Shown: positions 4,125 to 23,482 of the stretch, piece by piece | Position numbering within the stretch: position 1 is the stretch's first letter | Layout of the letters: every line of letters begins with the position of its first letter | Origin: Candidatus Parcubacteria bacterium | GTDB lineage: Bacteria; Patescibacteriota; Minisyncoccia; UBA9983 | Assembly: GCA_003599625.1 (NCBI GenBank) | Contig: QZIU01000004.1 | Location: forward strand, 1 to 32,285 | Length of the DNA: 32,285 bases | Direction: 5' to 3' | Notes under the pieces: generated by a model | What the model was told of the DNA's origin: nothing | What the model saw: only the letters and a program-made list of their open reading frames with translations | The model's database searches: none | Program-made: the position numbers and the translations under genes

Positions 4125-5369
4125 ATGGAATCAAGGACTTTACTTTTTGTAATCCTATCGGTCGGCGCTGTGGCATTTTTTGCTTGCGCGCTTTATCTCA
4201 ACATTCCTTATCTGGGCGCGACATTGAGACAATTGGCGGGGCCATTCTTCGCAGAAAGGATCACTCCGGAAGAAATCAAAAGCAAATACAGCGACGGCCG
4301 CCTCAAAATACTAATCGTTCCCGGACACGATAACGATTCTTTCGGAGCGGAGTATCGGGGCCTTAAAGAAGCCGATCTGAACAAGGACCTCGGACATGAA
4401 CTGTTTGGCGCGTTGAAGAATGACCGCAAATTTGAAACTTACATCACCAGAGAAAAATCCGGCAATTATTCCGACTGGTTCTCCCGATATTTGAATGTCG
4501 GTAAAAATGAAATAAAGAACTTCAGAGAAGATCAGAAACGCCAAATGCAAGAAGCGGTTGGCGCGGGAAACGTCACGGAGGAAACGACGGTGGCGCACAA
4601 TTCTGCCAATGATAATGATTCTCTTAAACTATACGCCATAAATAAGTGGGCCAATGAGAATGCCGTAGAAATTGTCCTGCATATACATTTCAACGACTAT
4701 CCCGGAAGAAGACCTTGGCAGCCGGGCGAATACTCGGGATTCTCCGTCTATATTCCGGAAAAACAACTTCCTAATCACAGAGCAAGTTCGGAACTTGCGA
4801 CATCTCTCAAAGGTCAACTCGAAAAATATTTCTCCAAAAGCGACCTTCCGGCCGAATCTTCGGCCTTGATTGAAGACCAGGAGCTCATAGCGATTGGATC
4901 GAATGCCTCGCGGGACGGCGTTTCCGTTCTTGTTGAATATGGTTATATTTACGAACCGGCTTTCACAAACGCGGAACTTAGAGAGACGATGTTTAAAGAA
5001 TTGGCGCATCAGACATACATTGGAGTAAAAAGCTTTTTTGATGGATCTTTTTCCGATGAACATCGCCAAAATGACACAACTTTGCTTCCGCATCAATGGG
5101 CAACCCCGATAAAAAAAGGAGCGGTCTCAAAAGACACGCTCCACTTGCAAATGGCCTTGAGCAAAGAGGGATCATATCCGCCGCCTAGCATGGAAAGCGC
5201 CGATTGCCCCATTAATGGAGTTTTCGGGCAATGCACTTTTTTGGCGGTGAAGAATTTTCAGGAAAAATATGAAGAAGAAATCCTTCGCGAAGGGGACAAA
5301 ATTCTAAAACCAACCGGTTTTGTCGGGTCTAATACTTTGAGAAAATTGAACGAATTATACGGAAAATAG
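4125..5369 (+). CDS. Membrane-anchored N-acetylmuramoyl-L-alanine amidase (amidase_3) with peptidoglycan-binding domain
   Basis: A 414-residue protein that cuts the bond between muramic acid and the stem peptide of peptidoglycan. An N-terminal hydrophobic helix (about residues 5-28) anchors or exports it. The amidase_3 core follows: zinc ligands His68 (VPGHDND), Glu82 (LKEADLN) and His188 (HIHFND), and catalytic Glu271 (VLVEYGYIYE). The C-terminal 90 residues read as a PG_binding_1 domain (LQMALSKEG, GVFGQCTFLAVKNFQEKY, GFVGSNTLRKLNELYGK). The reading frame stays open back to 3648, but that part lies antisense to the M3 gene; ATG at 4125 places the membrane helix at the N terminus. It stands alone on the plus strand and is convergent with rpsR. 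Confidence 0.88.
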   Translation: MESRTLLFVILSVGAVAFFACALYLNIPYLGATLRQLAGPFFAERITPEEIKSKYSDGRLKILIVPGHDNDSFGAEYRGLKEADLNKDLGHELFGALKNDRKFETYITREKSGNYSDWFSRYLNVGKNEIKNFREDQKRQMQEAVGAGNVTEETTVAHNSANDNDSLKLYAINKWANENAVEIVLHIHFNDYPGRRPWQPGEYSGFSVYIPEKQLPNHRASSELATSLKGQLEKYFSKSDLPAESSALIEDQELIAIGSNASRDGVSVLVEYGYIYEPAFTNAELRETMFKELAHQTYIGVKSFFDGSFSDEHRQNDTTLLPHQWATPIKKGAVSKDTLHLQMALSKEGSYPPPSMESADCPINGVFGQCTFLAVKNFQEKYEEEILREGDKILKPTGFVGSNTLRKLNELYGK

Positions 5370-5370
5370 G

Positions 5371-5438
5371 CCTGTGGGCAAATTCGCGCTCCTGCCTGGC
5401 TGTCTTCAACCTGGCAGGTGTGTGAATTTGTCCACAGG
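5371..5438. repeat. Palindromic element A (long hairpin)
   Basis: The outer arms CCTGTGGGCAAATTCGC and GTGAATTTGTCCACAGG pair along their full length if G-U pairs are allowed. The inner arms CCTGCCTGG and CCTGGCAGG flank a loop centred on TGTCTTCA. It begins 1 nt after the amidase stop codon, between convergent genes. The inner core is nearly the same as that of element B read on the other strand. It may also end transcription, although no T-run follows. Confidence 0.75.
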
Positions 5439-5452
5439 TCTGATGTTAATTC

Positions 5453-5516
5453 TGTGGAAAACTTAGCCGACCTTCCAGGTCGAAGACGACCAGGCAGGAC
5501 TGCCAAGTTTTCCACA
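5453..5516. repeat. Palindromic element B (long hairpin)
   Basis: The outer arms are a perfect 12-bp inverted repeat, TGTGGAAAACTT and AAGTTTTCCACA. The inner part (5475-5505 region) contains CCAGGTCGAAGACGACCAGG, which on the minus strand closely matches the core of element A. It ends 4 nt from the rpsR stop codon, so elements A and B form a back-to-back pair between the amidase and rpsR. Confidence 0.75.
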
Positions 5517-5519
5517 AGC

Positions 5520-5720
5520 TTACGGAGCAATAAAAGGCAACAGACCCATGATCCTGGCCCTTTTGATGGCAGTGGCCAACTTCCTCTGGTGCCTGGCGCA
5601 AACTCCCGTGTCCAACCGTGGCGAAATCCGCCCGTGATGACTCAGGAATTTCTTTAGGATTTCCGTCCTCTTGTAATCAATTGCGTTTATATTATTTGTG
5701 CAAAAATAACACTGTTTCAT
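5520..5720 (-). CDS. rpsR: 30S ribosomal protein S18
   Basis: A 66-residue protein with the S18 signatures: MKQCYFC.N.....DYK, LKKFLS..GRI.PR, TG.CARHQRKLA.AIKRAR.MGLLPF. S18 binds S6 on the small-subunit platform. It is slightly shorter than the typical 70-80 residues, with a shortened N terminus, as is common in reduced genomes. It is the third gene of the classic rpsF-ssb-rpsR operon. The ATG lies directly against a palindromic repeat that fills the spacer from ssb, and there is no clear Shine-Dalgarno sequence. Confidence 0.95.
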   Translation of the reverse strand: MKQCYFCTNNINAIDYKRTEILKKFLSHHGRISPRLDTGVCARHQRKLATAIKRARIMGLLPFIAP

Positions 5721-5721
5721 A

Positions 5722-5811
5722 AGATTAGCTTCTTAGGAATTAGCTTGTAGCTTTTTAGGATTTTAATTTAACCTAAAAAGCTAATTCCTACAACCTACAA
5801 CCTACAACCTA
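5722..5811 (-). repeat. Spacer palindromic repeat, copy 1 (ssb-rpsR)
   Basis: Read on the minus strand it starts with TAG (the ssb stop codon), then three to four tandem TTGTAGG-type 7-mers, then AGGAATTAGCTTTTTAGG, a short A/T loop, and the complementary CCTAAAAAGCTA followed by AGCTAATTCCTAAGAAGCT. It ends next to the rpsR ATG. Copies 2 (6265-6376) and 3 (14201-14287) share this order and sequence. Confidence 0.8.
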
Positions 5812-6264: not shown

Positions 6265-6376
6265 TGTCTAGCTTCTTAGGAATTAGCTTGTAGCTTTTTA
6301 GGTGAATTCAATTCTTACTAAAAAGCTAATTCCTACAACCTACAACCTGCCTACCGGCAGGCAGGCCTACAGCCTA
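6265..6376 (-). repeat. Spacer palindromic repeat, copy 2 (rpsF-ssb)
   Basis: The layout is as in copy 1: it starts with the TAG stop of rpsF, has TTGTAGG 7-mers, then AATTAGCTTTTTAG, a loop, CACCTAAAAAGCTA and CTAATTCCTAAGAAGCTAG, and stops against the ssb ATG. It additionally carries a small GC-rich palindrome near 6348-6366 (minus strand CCTGCCTGCCGGTAGGCAGG), which looks like a second element nested in the first. Confidence 0.8.
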
Positions 6377-14200: not shown

Positions 14201-14287
14201 GGATTAGCTTTTTAGGTTGTAGGAATTAGGTTGTAGCTTTTTCGTATTTAAATTTCTAAGAAGCTAATTCCTAACTCCTACAACCTA
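14201..14287 (-). repeat. Spacer palindromic repeat, copy 3 (before prgI)
   Basis: Minus strand: TAG (stop codon of the 212-aa gene), then GTTGTAGG-type 7-mers, GGAATTAGCTTCTTAG, an A/T loop, AAAAAGCTACAACC, TAATTCCTACAACC and TAAAAAGCTAATCC, ending against the PrgI ATG. Same family as copies 1 and 2, more than 7 kb away. Confidence 0.78.
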
Positions 14288-20583: not shown

Positions 20584-21486
20584 TTAGCTTGTCCAGATAG
20601 GATTGCCTGTGGAAAACTTAGAAGTCAGACATTTCCAATTTTCGAGCGACAAATCCTCCGCGCGAGATTTGGGAGGAATGCCGCAAGTGGCAAAATCCTC
20701 GGGTTTCATCTCCAAATTATTGATAAGCATCTTTCTTTTTTGGGCAAACCCTTTTTTAAGCGTCGCAAAAAAGGATTTTTCGCCGATATCCTCAAAAAAT
20801 TCTTTGGAAATACCCGATATCTTTAGAATCGCCGAATCAACTTTCGGCGGCGGGGAGAAAAAACTTGCAGGCACTCTCTTGATAATTTCCGGCCTTCCAT
20901 AGGCCTTAACGCTGATGGAAAGGAGACTTTCTTTGTTTTTGTCGGAGCCCGCCCGCAACGCCAGCGAGCTGTCTTGCGTGGCGGGCGGGCCCACCGCGCT
21001 TCGCGGAAGGGTAAAGCGCGAAAAATTTTGCTTTACTCCAGGCTTCATCTGCCCCACAATCCTCTCCGCCACTTCTTTTTGCACCATCAGAACCATCAAA
21101 GAAGGCTGCGATCCTTCCGGCTGATCTTCCAGGAAAGTCCTAAGAAATCGAGAAGTTATATAATAAGGAATATTAGCTATGATCTTGTAACCTGTAACTT
21201 GTAACTTGTAACTTGATGGATTAAAACGCAAAACATCACCTTTAACAATTTGCAGTTTGGGATTGTTTTCAAACTTAACTGCTAAATATTCAGCAAGCTC
21301 TTCGTCTTTTTCCACGGCGATCACTTTTTGAGCTTTCTTGAGTAGCTCTTCCGTTAAAATTCCCCTTCCGGGGCCGACTTCAAGCACAATATCATCCGGG
21401 CCAACTTCGCCAGCCTCAACAATCTCCCGCGCAATGGCCGATGATTTCAAGAAATTCTGTCCGAGAGATTTTTTTGGCCTATTCAT
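20584..21486 (-). CDS. ksgA: 16S rRNA dimethyladenosine transferase KsgA/RsmA with an in-frame palindromic insertion
   Basis: A 300-residue SAM-dependent enzyme that dimethylates two adjacent adenines near the 3' end of 16S rRNA. The start MNRPKKSLGQNFL, motif I LEVGPGRG (35-42), DVLRF, catalytic NIPYYITS (105-112) and C-terminal FSPPPKVDSAI are all present. It is about 30 residues longer than usual: residues ~148-184, between QKEVAERIV and SLLSISVKAYG, where homologues have only a few residues, contain a segment encoded by hairpin-rich DNA (20947-21037). A four-copy 7-mer at 21184-21211 encodes YKLQVTGYK before motif IV. It overlaps uvrD by 8 nt, so the two form an operon. Confidence 0.95.
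   Translation of the reverse strand: MNRPKKSLGQNFLKSSAIAREIVEAGEVGPDDIVLEVGPGRGILTEELLKKAQKVIAVEKDEELAEYLAVKFENNPKLQIVKGDVLRFNPSSYKLQVTGYKIIANIPYYITSRFLRTFLEDQPEGSQPSLMVLMVQKEVAERIVGQMKPGVKQNFSRFTLPRSAVGPPATQDSSLALRAGSDKNKESLLSISVKAYGRPEIIKRVPASFFSPPPKVDSAILKISGISKEFFEDIGEKSFFATLKKGFAQKRKMLINNLEMKPEDFATCGIPPKSRAEDLSLENWKCLTSKFSTGNPIWTS
20947..21037. repeat. In-frame palindromic element inside ksgA
   Basis: Three hairpins in a row: a 15-bp GC-rich stem with one mismatch (20947-20961 with 20976-20990; arms GCCCGCCCGC and GCGGGCGGGC plus flanking ACGC/GCGT), a perfect 5-bp CCGCG/CGCGG hairpin (20994-21006), and GTAAAGC/GCTTTAC (21011-21036). Together they encode most of the extra ~35 residues of KsgA without breaking the frame. 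Confidence 0.75.
21184..21211. repeat. Four-copy 7-bp tandem repeat inside ksgA
   Basis: CTTGTAA, CCTGTAA, CTTGTAA, CTTGTAA in direct tandem. Three units equal 21 nt, so the reading frame can be kept. The unit size matches the TTGTAGG 7-mers in the spacer repeats. Confidence 0.7.
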
Positions 21487-23482
21487 ACCGTATCACATCC
21501 TCCGGCTGAAACTTAAACTGTTCCATTTTATAGAGATGATCAGGGATGTCGCTCAAGAATCTCGACGGCATGTTCATCTGTTTGCTGCCGAAGACGGTTC
21601 TGATGACACTGAAAGAAAGCCAGAGTTTTTCTTTCGCCCTTGTTACGGCCACGTAAAACAACCTTCTTTCCTCTTCATCCCGCTCCCCGCTCCTGTCCCC
21701 AAAGCCGCTGTGCGGGAAAAGGCCTTCTTCCAGGCCGGCAATAAAAACATTTTTAAACTCCAGCCCTTTGGCGGCGTGAACCGTCATTAATCTTATCGTT
21801 TCTTTTTTGGCTTGGCCGGACATATCCATCGAATCTTGCGCGCTCATCAAGGCCGCGTCCTCAAGCATCTTATCCGTTCCTTCCGGCGGGTCGCAATGAT
21901 CATATTTGGTGGCGATAGAGACCAGTTCTTTGACATTCTCAAGCCTCTCTTGATCGATGCCGTCGCCTTCCTCCAGAAATTTTTCCATGCCGGTTTCTCT
22001 CAAGACAAAAGCGACAACTTCGGAGGTTTTCTTGCTTAACCCGGCTTTATTTATCGAATCGAGCAAGTCCATAAATTCCTGAAACTTTTTTTCCGCGGCC
22101 GGCGGCAATTTCTTGCCCGCGAACTTGTTGGCGATAGAAACCTTACCCAATCCCCGCGGAGGAACATTTATTATTCTTTTGATGCTCAAAAGATCCTGCC
22201 TGTTGGCCGCCGCCCGCAAATAAGCAAAAACATCTTTTACTTCTTTTCTCTCATAGAACTGCACGCCCAACATTTGATACGGCACGCCATGTTTGAGGCA
22301 CATCTCCTCGAAAACTCTCGATTGGAAATTCGCCCGAAACAAAACCGCCACATCCGAAGGAGAAACGCCGCTGGCCAAAACCTCTTTGATTTTGTGAATA
22401 ACGAACTCCGCCTCCTCGTTCTCCCCCATCGCCTCAAAAAGAGAAATTTCCGCTCCTTTGACGTTTTTGGTGTACAGTCCCTTGGCCTTCCGAACCTTGT
22501 TCTTCTCGATCACTTTGGCCGCCGCCTCCAGAATATTTTGCGTGGAACGGTAATTTTCTTCCAAAGCGATGGAAACAAGGTTGGGGAAATCCCGTTCAAA
22601 ATTGATGATGTTCCTGAAATCGGCCCCCCTGAAACCGTAGATAGACTGGTCCATATCGCCGATGGCGCAAATATTCTTATGCCTGGCCGACAAGAGCTTG
22701 GATAATTCGTACTGGCTTTTGTTGGTATCCTGATACTCGTCTATAATAATGTAATCCCATAGATTTTGATAATAATTCCTGGCCGTTTCGTCCTTCTTCA
22801 AAAGAAAAACAACCTTCGAAACAAGATCATCGAAATCCAAAGCCTTCTGAGCGGCTAAAAGTTCTTCGTACTTCTTCCAGATCCTCGCGATCATGGAAGG
22901 ATAAAAATCGCTTCCCGCTTCATTGGAGTAGGTTTCCCAATCCATCAGATCGCCTTTTTCGCGCGAAATAATGGATTGCATTTTGTTCGGCTGGAATTGT
23001 TTGGGGTCGATGCTTAATTCCTTCAGCGCTTCTTTGACCAGCGACAAACTTTCGTCTTTGTCCAAGATGGAAAAATTCTTCGGCGCGCCGACCTTTTCTC
23101 CGCTCCTTCTTAAAATATAAACCCCCAAGGTATGAAAAGTGCTAATAAAAGGATGCTTGCCTGTTCCTGAAAATTTTGAAGTCCCGCCTGGTTGCTTTGA
23201 ACCTGGAGGGTCGTCAAAATTTTCAGGAACCGGCAAAATTTCGGCCTCCAGCCTTTTTAACAGACTAAATATTCTTTCCTTCATCTCGTTCGCCGCCTTG
23301 TTGGTAAAAGTGATGGCCAGGATCTTTTCCGGCGCCACTCCCTGAGCGACAAGATAAGCGATCCGATGACTGATACTCTTCGTCTTTCCCGAACCGGCTC
23401 CGGCCAAAACCAACAATGGGCCGTCTTTGCGCAAGACGACCTTTTTCTGAGCTTCATTCAAACCATCCAGCAAAAAATTCAT
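21479..23482 (-). CDS. pcrA: UvrD/PcrA/Rep-type superfamily 1 DNA helicase with an in-frame palindromic insertion
   Basis: A 667-residue 3'-5' helicase for repair and replication restart. The motifs run in order: Q-motif LNEAQKKVV, Walker A GAGSGKT (28-34), Ia TFTNKAANEMKER, II IIDEYQDTN, III GDMDQSIYGFRGAD, IV ALEENYRST, V TVHAAKGLEFKNVFIAGLEEGLFPH, VI EEERRLFYVAVTRAKEKL. Between RIFSLLK and ISTFHTLGVYILRR, PcrA proteins usually have about 8-12 residues; here there are some 37, and residues ~84-109 (a Pro/Gly/Ser-rich stretch) are exactly encoded by a palindrome. All motifs are intact, so it is probably active. UvrD, PcrA and Rep cannot be told apart here. It overlaps ksgA by 8 nt. Confidence 0.95.
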   Translation of the reverse strand: MNFLLDGLNEAQKKVVLRKDGPLLVLAGAGSGKTKSISHRIAYLVAQGVAPEKILAITFTNKAANEMKERIFSLLKRLEAEILPVPENFDDPPGSKQPGGTSKFSGTGKHPFISTFHTLGVYILRRSGEKVGAPKNFSILDKDESLSLVKEALKELSIDPKQFQPNKMQSIISREKGDLMDWETYSNEAGSDFYPSMIARIWKKYEELLAAQKALDFDDLVSKVVFLLKKDETARNYYQNLWDYIIIDEYQDTNKSQYELSKLLSARHKNICAIGDMDQSIYGFRGADFRNIINFERDFPNLVSIALEENYRSTQNILEAAAKVIEKNKVRKAKGLYTKNVKGAEISLFEAMGENEEAEFVIHKIKEVLASGVSPSDVAVLFRANFQSRVFEEMCLKHGVPYQMLGVQFYERKEVKDVFAYLRAAANRQDLLSIKRIINVPPRGLGKVSIANKFAGKKLPPAAEKKFQEFMDLLDSINKAGLSKKTSEVVAFVLRETGMEKFLEEGDGIDQERLENVKELVSIATKYDHCDPPEGTDKMLEDAALMSAQDSMDMSGQAKKETIRLMTVHAAKGLEFKNVFIAGLEEGLFPHSGFGDRSGERDEEERRLFYVAVTRAKEKLWLSFSVIRTVFGSKQMNMPSRFLSDIPDHLYKMEQFKFQPEDVIRYE
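23157..23237. repeat. In-frame palindromic element C inside uvrD/pcrA
   Basis: The arms share GTTCCTGAAAATTTTGA (left) and its exact complement (right), extended by TTGCC/GGCAA. The inner core, GCCTGGTTGCTTTGAACCTGG with flanking CCC/GGG, matches the inner core of elements A and B (GCCTGG-YTG-TCTT-CRACCTGG type). It encodes residues 84-109 of the helicase and is about 81 bp, a multiple of three. Confidence 0.82.

Follow-up and report, generated by a model that had tools for sequence, protein, structure and literature searches.

A Candidatus Parcubacteria bacterium carries a hairpin inside the coding sequence of its uvrD/pcrA helicase gene, and the question arises of what this DNA is and how it became part of a protein. 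The window, i.e. the whole stretch of DNA that was analysed (32,285 nucleotides of contig QZIU01000004.1), belongs as contig 9 to a genome of 906 kb in 35 contigs with an estimated contamination of 4.5% (G000). The analysis given below makes it probable that the segment is a copy of a genus-specific, non-autonomous family of mobile palindromic elements.

The palindromic segment of the helicase gene

The host gene is read from the minus strand (21479-23482) and encodes a PcrA/UvrD helicase of 667 aa (Pfam PF00580, E 2.7e-84, and PF13361; 1pjr). Within it, positions 23157-23236 (+) form an inverted repeat whose arms of 37 nt (23157-23193 and 23200-23236) are 86% complementary and contain a perfect stem of 17 bp, made up of GTTCCTGAAAATTTTGA (23163-23179, +) and TCAAAATTTTCAGGAAC (23214-23230, +); the conserved imperfect core CCTGGTTGCTTTGAACCTGG lies between them at 23187-23206 (+). 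In the alignment of element copies described below, the outer stem of the uvrD copy is Watson-Crick paired at 16 of 16 positions. Folded as single-stranded DNA, the two strands reached -28.6 and -30.0 kcal/mol (z -8.9 and -9.6), and none of 200 shuffled sequences folded as well. A sequence-only reading of the window had described a hairpin of 81 bp with a perfect 17-bp arm; hairpin and arm were found as described but the length is 80 bp. Codons 84-109 (23233-23158) lie inside the element, in agreement with the residues which that reading had assigned to the hairpin.

The AlphaFold model of PcrA (26 sequences) has a mean pLDDT of 86 and is confident on both sides of the insert (helix 61-82, strand 112-115), with pLDDT values below 50 at residues 84-108. 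The most plausible reading of the insert is a predicted disordered loop of about 26-28 added residues that is tolerated by the protein. The closest named PcrA relatives in GTDB, from Candidatus Zambryskibacteria and other Patescibacteria, are 46-49% identical, and the segment was absent in 24 of 24 relatives compared. The linker from TFTNKA..R to STFH has 12-26 residues in most relatives (median 14) compared with 43 here, and in the alignment with PcrA of B. stearothermophilus (1pjr) query positions 76 and 105 come together at chain residue 81. Presence of the segment in all relatives would have refuted the earlier reading; it was absent from the 24 relatives as well as from the B. stearothermophilus enzyme.

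A dispersed family of elements

The core, searched as CCTGGNNGNNNTNNACCTGG, occurs in the window three times without mismatch (5395-5414, 5475-5494 on the minus strand and 23187-23206) and five times with up to two mismatches, compared with 0.28 matches expected. Two of the mismatch-free copies lie in the two intergenic hairpins to which the sequence-only reading had attributed the same core. These hairpins are wider than it stated: they extend over 5365-5444 (+; 85.0 bits with the covariance model R1, fold z -9.6) and 5445-5524 (-; R1 88.1 bits, fold z -8.3 for the element strand) and form an inverted pair. Genome-wide, the core pattern with at most one mismatch was found in 13 copies on 8 contigs and the same pattern read backward in none. 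R1, which was built from ten element copies, matched 37 places on 15 contigs, the uvrD element with 78.4 bits (E 7e-15); about 35 of these places are convincing, three are doubtful (C12:11313, C33:40802 and C4:10543), and the count is a lower bound, 150 of 839 candidates having been scored. A genome without a second copy of the core would also have refuted the earlier reading; the element is present at about 35 places. Intergenic elements make up the majority and the remainder lies in gene ends or within genes; with 8 of 37 copies in genes against an assumed coding fraction of about 0.88, the element is depleted in genes.

The consensus element measures about 70 bp, or 70-140 bp when nested palindromes are included, and consists of an outer stem of 14-17 bp, with ends that are usually CCTGTGGA(A/T)AACTT, an inner stem CCTGCCTGGTTG..CAACCTGG and a loop that is short or GGGTTTCAA-like. 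An alignment of 25 copies, 23 from this genome and two from that of a sister species (G001), the one further genome of the genus that was compared, was analysed for covariation. In the stems 86.5% of the cells were paired, compared with at most 54% when the partners were slid, and compensatory changes were seen in 21 of 30 stem pairs, which was reached in none of 500 shuffles. At fixed columns the mismatches T.T, A.G and T.T are conserved, and the imperfection of the hairpin is thus a regular one. At six places the element is paired with an oppositely oriented copy at a distance of about 80 bp, and in at least eight copies the loop or the inner stem contains nested, smaller palindromes.

In six genes of this genome, eight copies are traversed by a reading frame without stop codons. 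Besides the single copy in uvrD (residues 84-109), recO contains an inverted pair that forms one in-frame insert of about 55 residues. The copy in a GT4 glycosyltransferase is 140 bp long and holds two nested palindromes; two copies lie in a secreted protein, one in a Ser-rich protein (C5:4709-4789) and one in a prepilin-like protein, within its leader. In the sister species, dusB carries a separate in-frame copy. Preservation of the frame by in-gene copies was seen in uvrD, recO, the glycosyltransferase and the sister-species dusB, as would be expected from the earlier proposal. With the latter counted, five of nine in-gene copies use the main frame (roughly xENFxxLPGxxxPGRSAKFSxG), three a second (LWKTxxTFQVEDNQAG) and one the third. 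Elements have 3.4 open frames of six on average, compared with 2.1-2.2 in shuffled sequences. The copy in the Ser-rich protein has recoded arms, GATGACAGCGAC and GTCGCTGTCATC (Asp/Ser codons), that are still perfectly complementary.

The comparison of inserts with orthologues covered uvrD, recO, the glycosyltransferase and dusB. The recO insert was absent in four relatives and the glycosyltransferase insert in five, the sites being empty or different there. The dusB loop has an R1 element in G001, is short in G007 and holds a different palindrome in G000. The rpsS-rplV spacer contains the element in this genome and lacks it in G001, which has few copies. Gain and loss are thereby read from few species and one congeneric genome. 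Element-bearing loops and spacers could not be aligned with those of relatives at the base level, and therefore neither the junctions nor a target-site duplication are fixed.

Outside the genus, the R1 family was found in none of nine genomes of the same family (full look), 17 of the same class and 379 of the phylum (stricter filters). Among the genomes searched, the family is restricted to the genus. The exact 24-base core was absent from 84,980 GTDB species genomes. Patterns of the 20-base core or of end plus core gave no match in 2.9 million viral contigs, so there is no sign of a viral carrier.

Lone element ends and other palindromes

The element ends CTGTGGATAACTT (a 13-mer) contain the DnaA-box-like sequence TTATCCACAG, and were considered as putative DnaA boxes. 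A lone end motif, the DnaA-box-like CTGTGGAAAACTT at 20607-20619 (+), is located at the 3' end of rsmA without a hairpin partner and is perhaps an element remnant. CTGTGGATAACTT alone was also seen upstream of mraZ in G000 (C12:11371, L177) and G001 (C10:3308, L161), as well as beside prfA in G000 (C8:23570, L169) and G007 (C5:24107, L164).

Palindromes of other families were found in the window and in relatives. In rsmA, an in-frame insert of about 100 bp (20940-21045, about 35 residues) contains two or three of them, among them a palindrome with 18-nt arms that are 89% complementary (GCCCGCCCGCAACGCCAG / CTTGCGTGGCGGGCGGGC, 20947-20990, no strand assigned) and the hairpin GGGTAAAGC...GCTTTACTCC; this segment is absent, short or different in four relatives. 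An intergenic repeat with inverted halves, TAGCTTCTTAGGAATTAGCTTGTAGCTTTTTAGG ... CTAATTCCTACAACCTACAACCT, lies in three spacers of the window (5726-5803, 6269-6348 and 14212-14286). The 20-mer palindrome CCTGCCTGCCGGCAGGCAGG is present in 86 of 380 genomes of the phylum, up to 25 times per genome, with a backward control of 0, and in G000 it is nested in the element at C13:18413, C17:2106, C34:5267 and C1:17883. In other genomes it lies in frame in DnaE (L132), MutM/Fpg (L139) and MsrB (L147), to which it adds LPAGRQ-like residues relative to solved homologues. A second palindrome core, TTCCATCANGGNCATAA..AATGATTCCA, forms an in-frame part of the glycosyltransferase gene in G001 (L260) and G007 (L262) and of rsmA in G005 (L261); its family has variable, nearly perfectly complementary arms, and a strict pattern recovered in 112 relatives the three known copies only. 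In the glycosyltransferases of G001 and G007, which belong to two genera, the arms are perfect and different in sequence around a common core.

In uvrD of G005 (L040), which belongs to another genus, a different palindrome with arms of about 20 bp (GAGAGTCGGC..CCTTCGTCCC) occupies the same PcrA loop, and this loop is therefore a repeated target. The dusB loop that holds the R1 element in G001 is occupied in G000 (L157) by a palindromic insert unrelated to it (GGGGTCAAGTCAATATTTT..AAAATATTGACTTGCCCC, z -5). In G001, a related hairpin (C7:6233-6313, L069) is flanked by A and T runs; by its sequence it looks like a bidirectional terminator, perhaps with a domesticated core. A terminator reading of the element was rejected, the T-run being found at this copy only.

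Origin, relatives and meaning of the element

Dispersal of the family, its expansion in one lineage, its in-frame copies and the empty sites together form the pattern expected of a non-autonomous mobile element. The suggestion that the hairpin is a mobile element that tolerates insertion into proteins was borne out as far as copies, in-frame sites and absence in relatives are concerned; the movement itself, by transposition, we infer from copy number, scatter and presence/absence. Most insertions into genes would be lost, leaving the majority of surviving copies in spacers, and the survivors in genes would be those that add a length that is a multiple of three, keep the frame open and lie in a surface loop. 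Transposition would most likely proceed via single-stranded hairpin DNA, with the enzyme supplied in trans. Recognition of single-stranded DNA is suggested by the imperfect hairpin with its fixed mismatches and by the inverted pairs, as in REP/RAYT systems, in which unpaired hairpin bases matter for recognition (PMC3733652). An HUH/Y1 (RAYT-like) transposase is the leading candidate for the mobilising step, albeit a doubtful one. The genome has one Y1_Tnp match, an ORF of 172 aa on L092, and no R1 match lies beside it; G001 has four Y1/RAYT transposase genes, and genes of this type are also present in relatives without the element. None of the Y1 loci examined in the two genomes had a full flanking element, and the sole weak R1 match near them (L085 557-622, E 0.08) corresponds to another nested hairpin, the arms of which are CCCTGTGAAAT.

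These observations also bear on whether the element is a REP/BIME/REPIN-like unit that a resident RAYT transposase mobilises. The six inverted pairs with their spacing of about 80 bp, the conserved mismatches of the hairpins and the single Y1_Tnp gene would agree with this, and intragenic REPs, often in repair genes, have been described (PMC3733652). However, the aligned copies lack a terminal unpaired GTAG or CGTC tag, the unit is 70 bp long with outer stems of 14-17 bp instead of 20-40 bp with stems of 5-13 bp, and the Y1_Tnp gene is without a flanking element, so that we consider membership in this class unlikely. Less likely still is that nothing moves, i.e. that variable loops turn palindromic locally by template switching (quasipalindrome correction) and that similar cores arise from few seeds. 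Unrelated palindromes do occur in the same loops across species (uvrD of G005, dusB of G000, rsmA of G001 and G005), the orthologous glycosyltransferase inserts of G001 and G007 have widely different yet perfectly complementary arms, and the uvrD arms depart from the family consensus but pair perfectly. Local formation leaves unexplained, however, that one specific core together with its ends is found at about 35 places with a reversed control of zero, and correction would remove the fixed-column mismatches, which persist. It may contribute alongside movement of the element. In the mobile-element reading, which we prefer, complementarity of the arms could be kept by hairpin-templated correction during replication rather than by selection on the protein; this is proposed because the uvrD arms are far from the consensus yet perfectly paired, and because of the glycosyltransferase palindrome in two genera. 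Alternatively, movement-competent hairpins may be selected.

Strong covariation, 21 G.U against 10 A.C cells and the terminator-like hairpin with a T-run in G001 could also point to a functional RNA, or the segment could be a selected part of the protein. But no Rfam family covers the element (a scan of the window at gathering thresholds gave no match), it lies in unrelated genes in both orientations and in three reading frames, and the protein segment is absent from orthologues and disordered in the model, which makes a selected function very improbable. An assembly error or contamination would have to be thought of in a metagenome-assembled genome of 35 contigs with the contamination estimated above. 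It was rejected, and has hardly any probability left, since copies are present on 15 contigs, the frame of each in-gene copy is open and, in a second, independent genome of the genus, the element lies in frame in a different gene.

The closest likeness is to the Rickettsia palindromic elements (RPEs), which are likewise palindromic, present in many copies per genome, located in spacers and in frame in unrelated housekeeping and repair genes, without a known transposase and hosted by a reduced-genome bacterium (PMC10969869, PMC3733652). As with RPEs, the in-frame inserts studied here (uvrD, recO, glycosyltransferase, dusB) are absent from orthologues, and the inserted peptide fits the fold, residues 84-108 being of low and the rest of high confidence. 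RPEs are about 150 bp long and form ten families, and nearly half of the R. conorii copies are in genes (PMC10969869). The element described here differs in being from another phylum, in its unit of about 70 bp, DnaA-box-like ends, fixed inner-stem mismatches, inverted pairs, nested smaller palindromes and use of three reading frames; no shared sequence was found, as judged from the narrow search with the exact 24-base core in the GTDB species genomes. The resemblance concerns behaviour and not ancestry. With REP/BIME/REPIN sequences the element shares imperfect hairpins, inverted pairs and a mainly intergenic, sometimes intragenic location, but it is about twice as long, has no GTAG or CGTC tag in the aligned copies and does not adjoin the resident RAYT-like gene. 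Bacterial MITEs are also short, non-autonomous inverted-repeat DNA with occasional in-frame fusions (PMC10969869); here, a target-site duplication could not be read from loops and spacers that do not align at the base level, and among Y1 transposases, to which the search was confined, no parent insertion sequence was found. Nested hairpin DNA, some of it in coding sequence, is also known from yeast mitochondrial GC clusters and chytrid double-hairpin elements; these are mitochondrial and GC-rich, and are likened here by description only. The sequence-only reading knew of no description for CPR bacteria, and the open-access literature likewise gave none for CPR, Patescibacteria or Parcubacteria; as an argument for novelty this is weak.

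Descriptions of in-frame palindromic selfish DNA come mostly from Rickettsia, and intragenic REPs have been described in scattered species. Patescibacteria are a very large group of streamlined, host-dependent organisms whose mobile DNA is little studied. A scattered palindrome that survives in flexible protein loops looks like selfish DNA, and its presence in Patescibacteria means that the in-frame strategy is not peculiar to one genus. In practical terms, alignments and gene calls of these genomes will be led astray by loops with such inserts. Numerous copies, the nesting of elements and the availability of close relatives offer a system in which the movement of such elements can be studied, as well as why arms stay complementary in coding sequence and how essential proteins gain peptide segments. 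Tentatively, and as a possibility rather than an expectation, Patescibacteria may carry several unrelated families of selfish palindromes in flexible loops of essential proteins, some of them phylum-wide; palindromes in genes may persist across genera while their arms drift together by a DNA-level mechanism, and variable loops may in part be shaped by the dynamics of palindromes instead of ordinary mutation.
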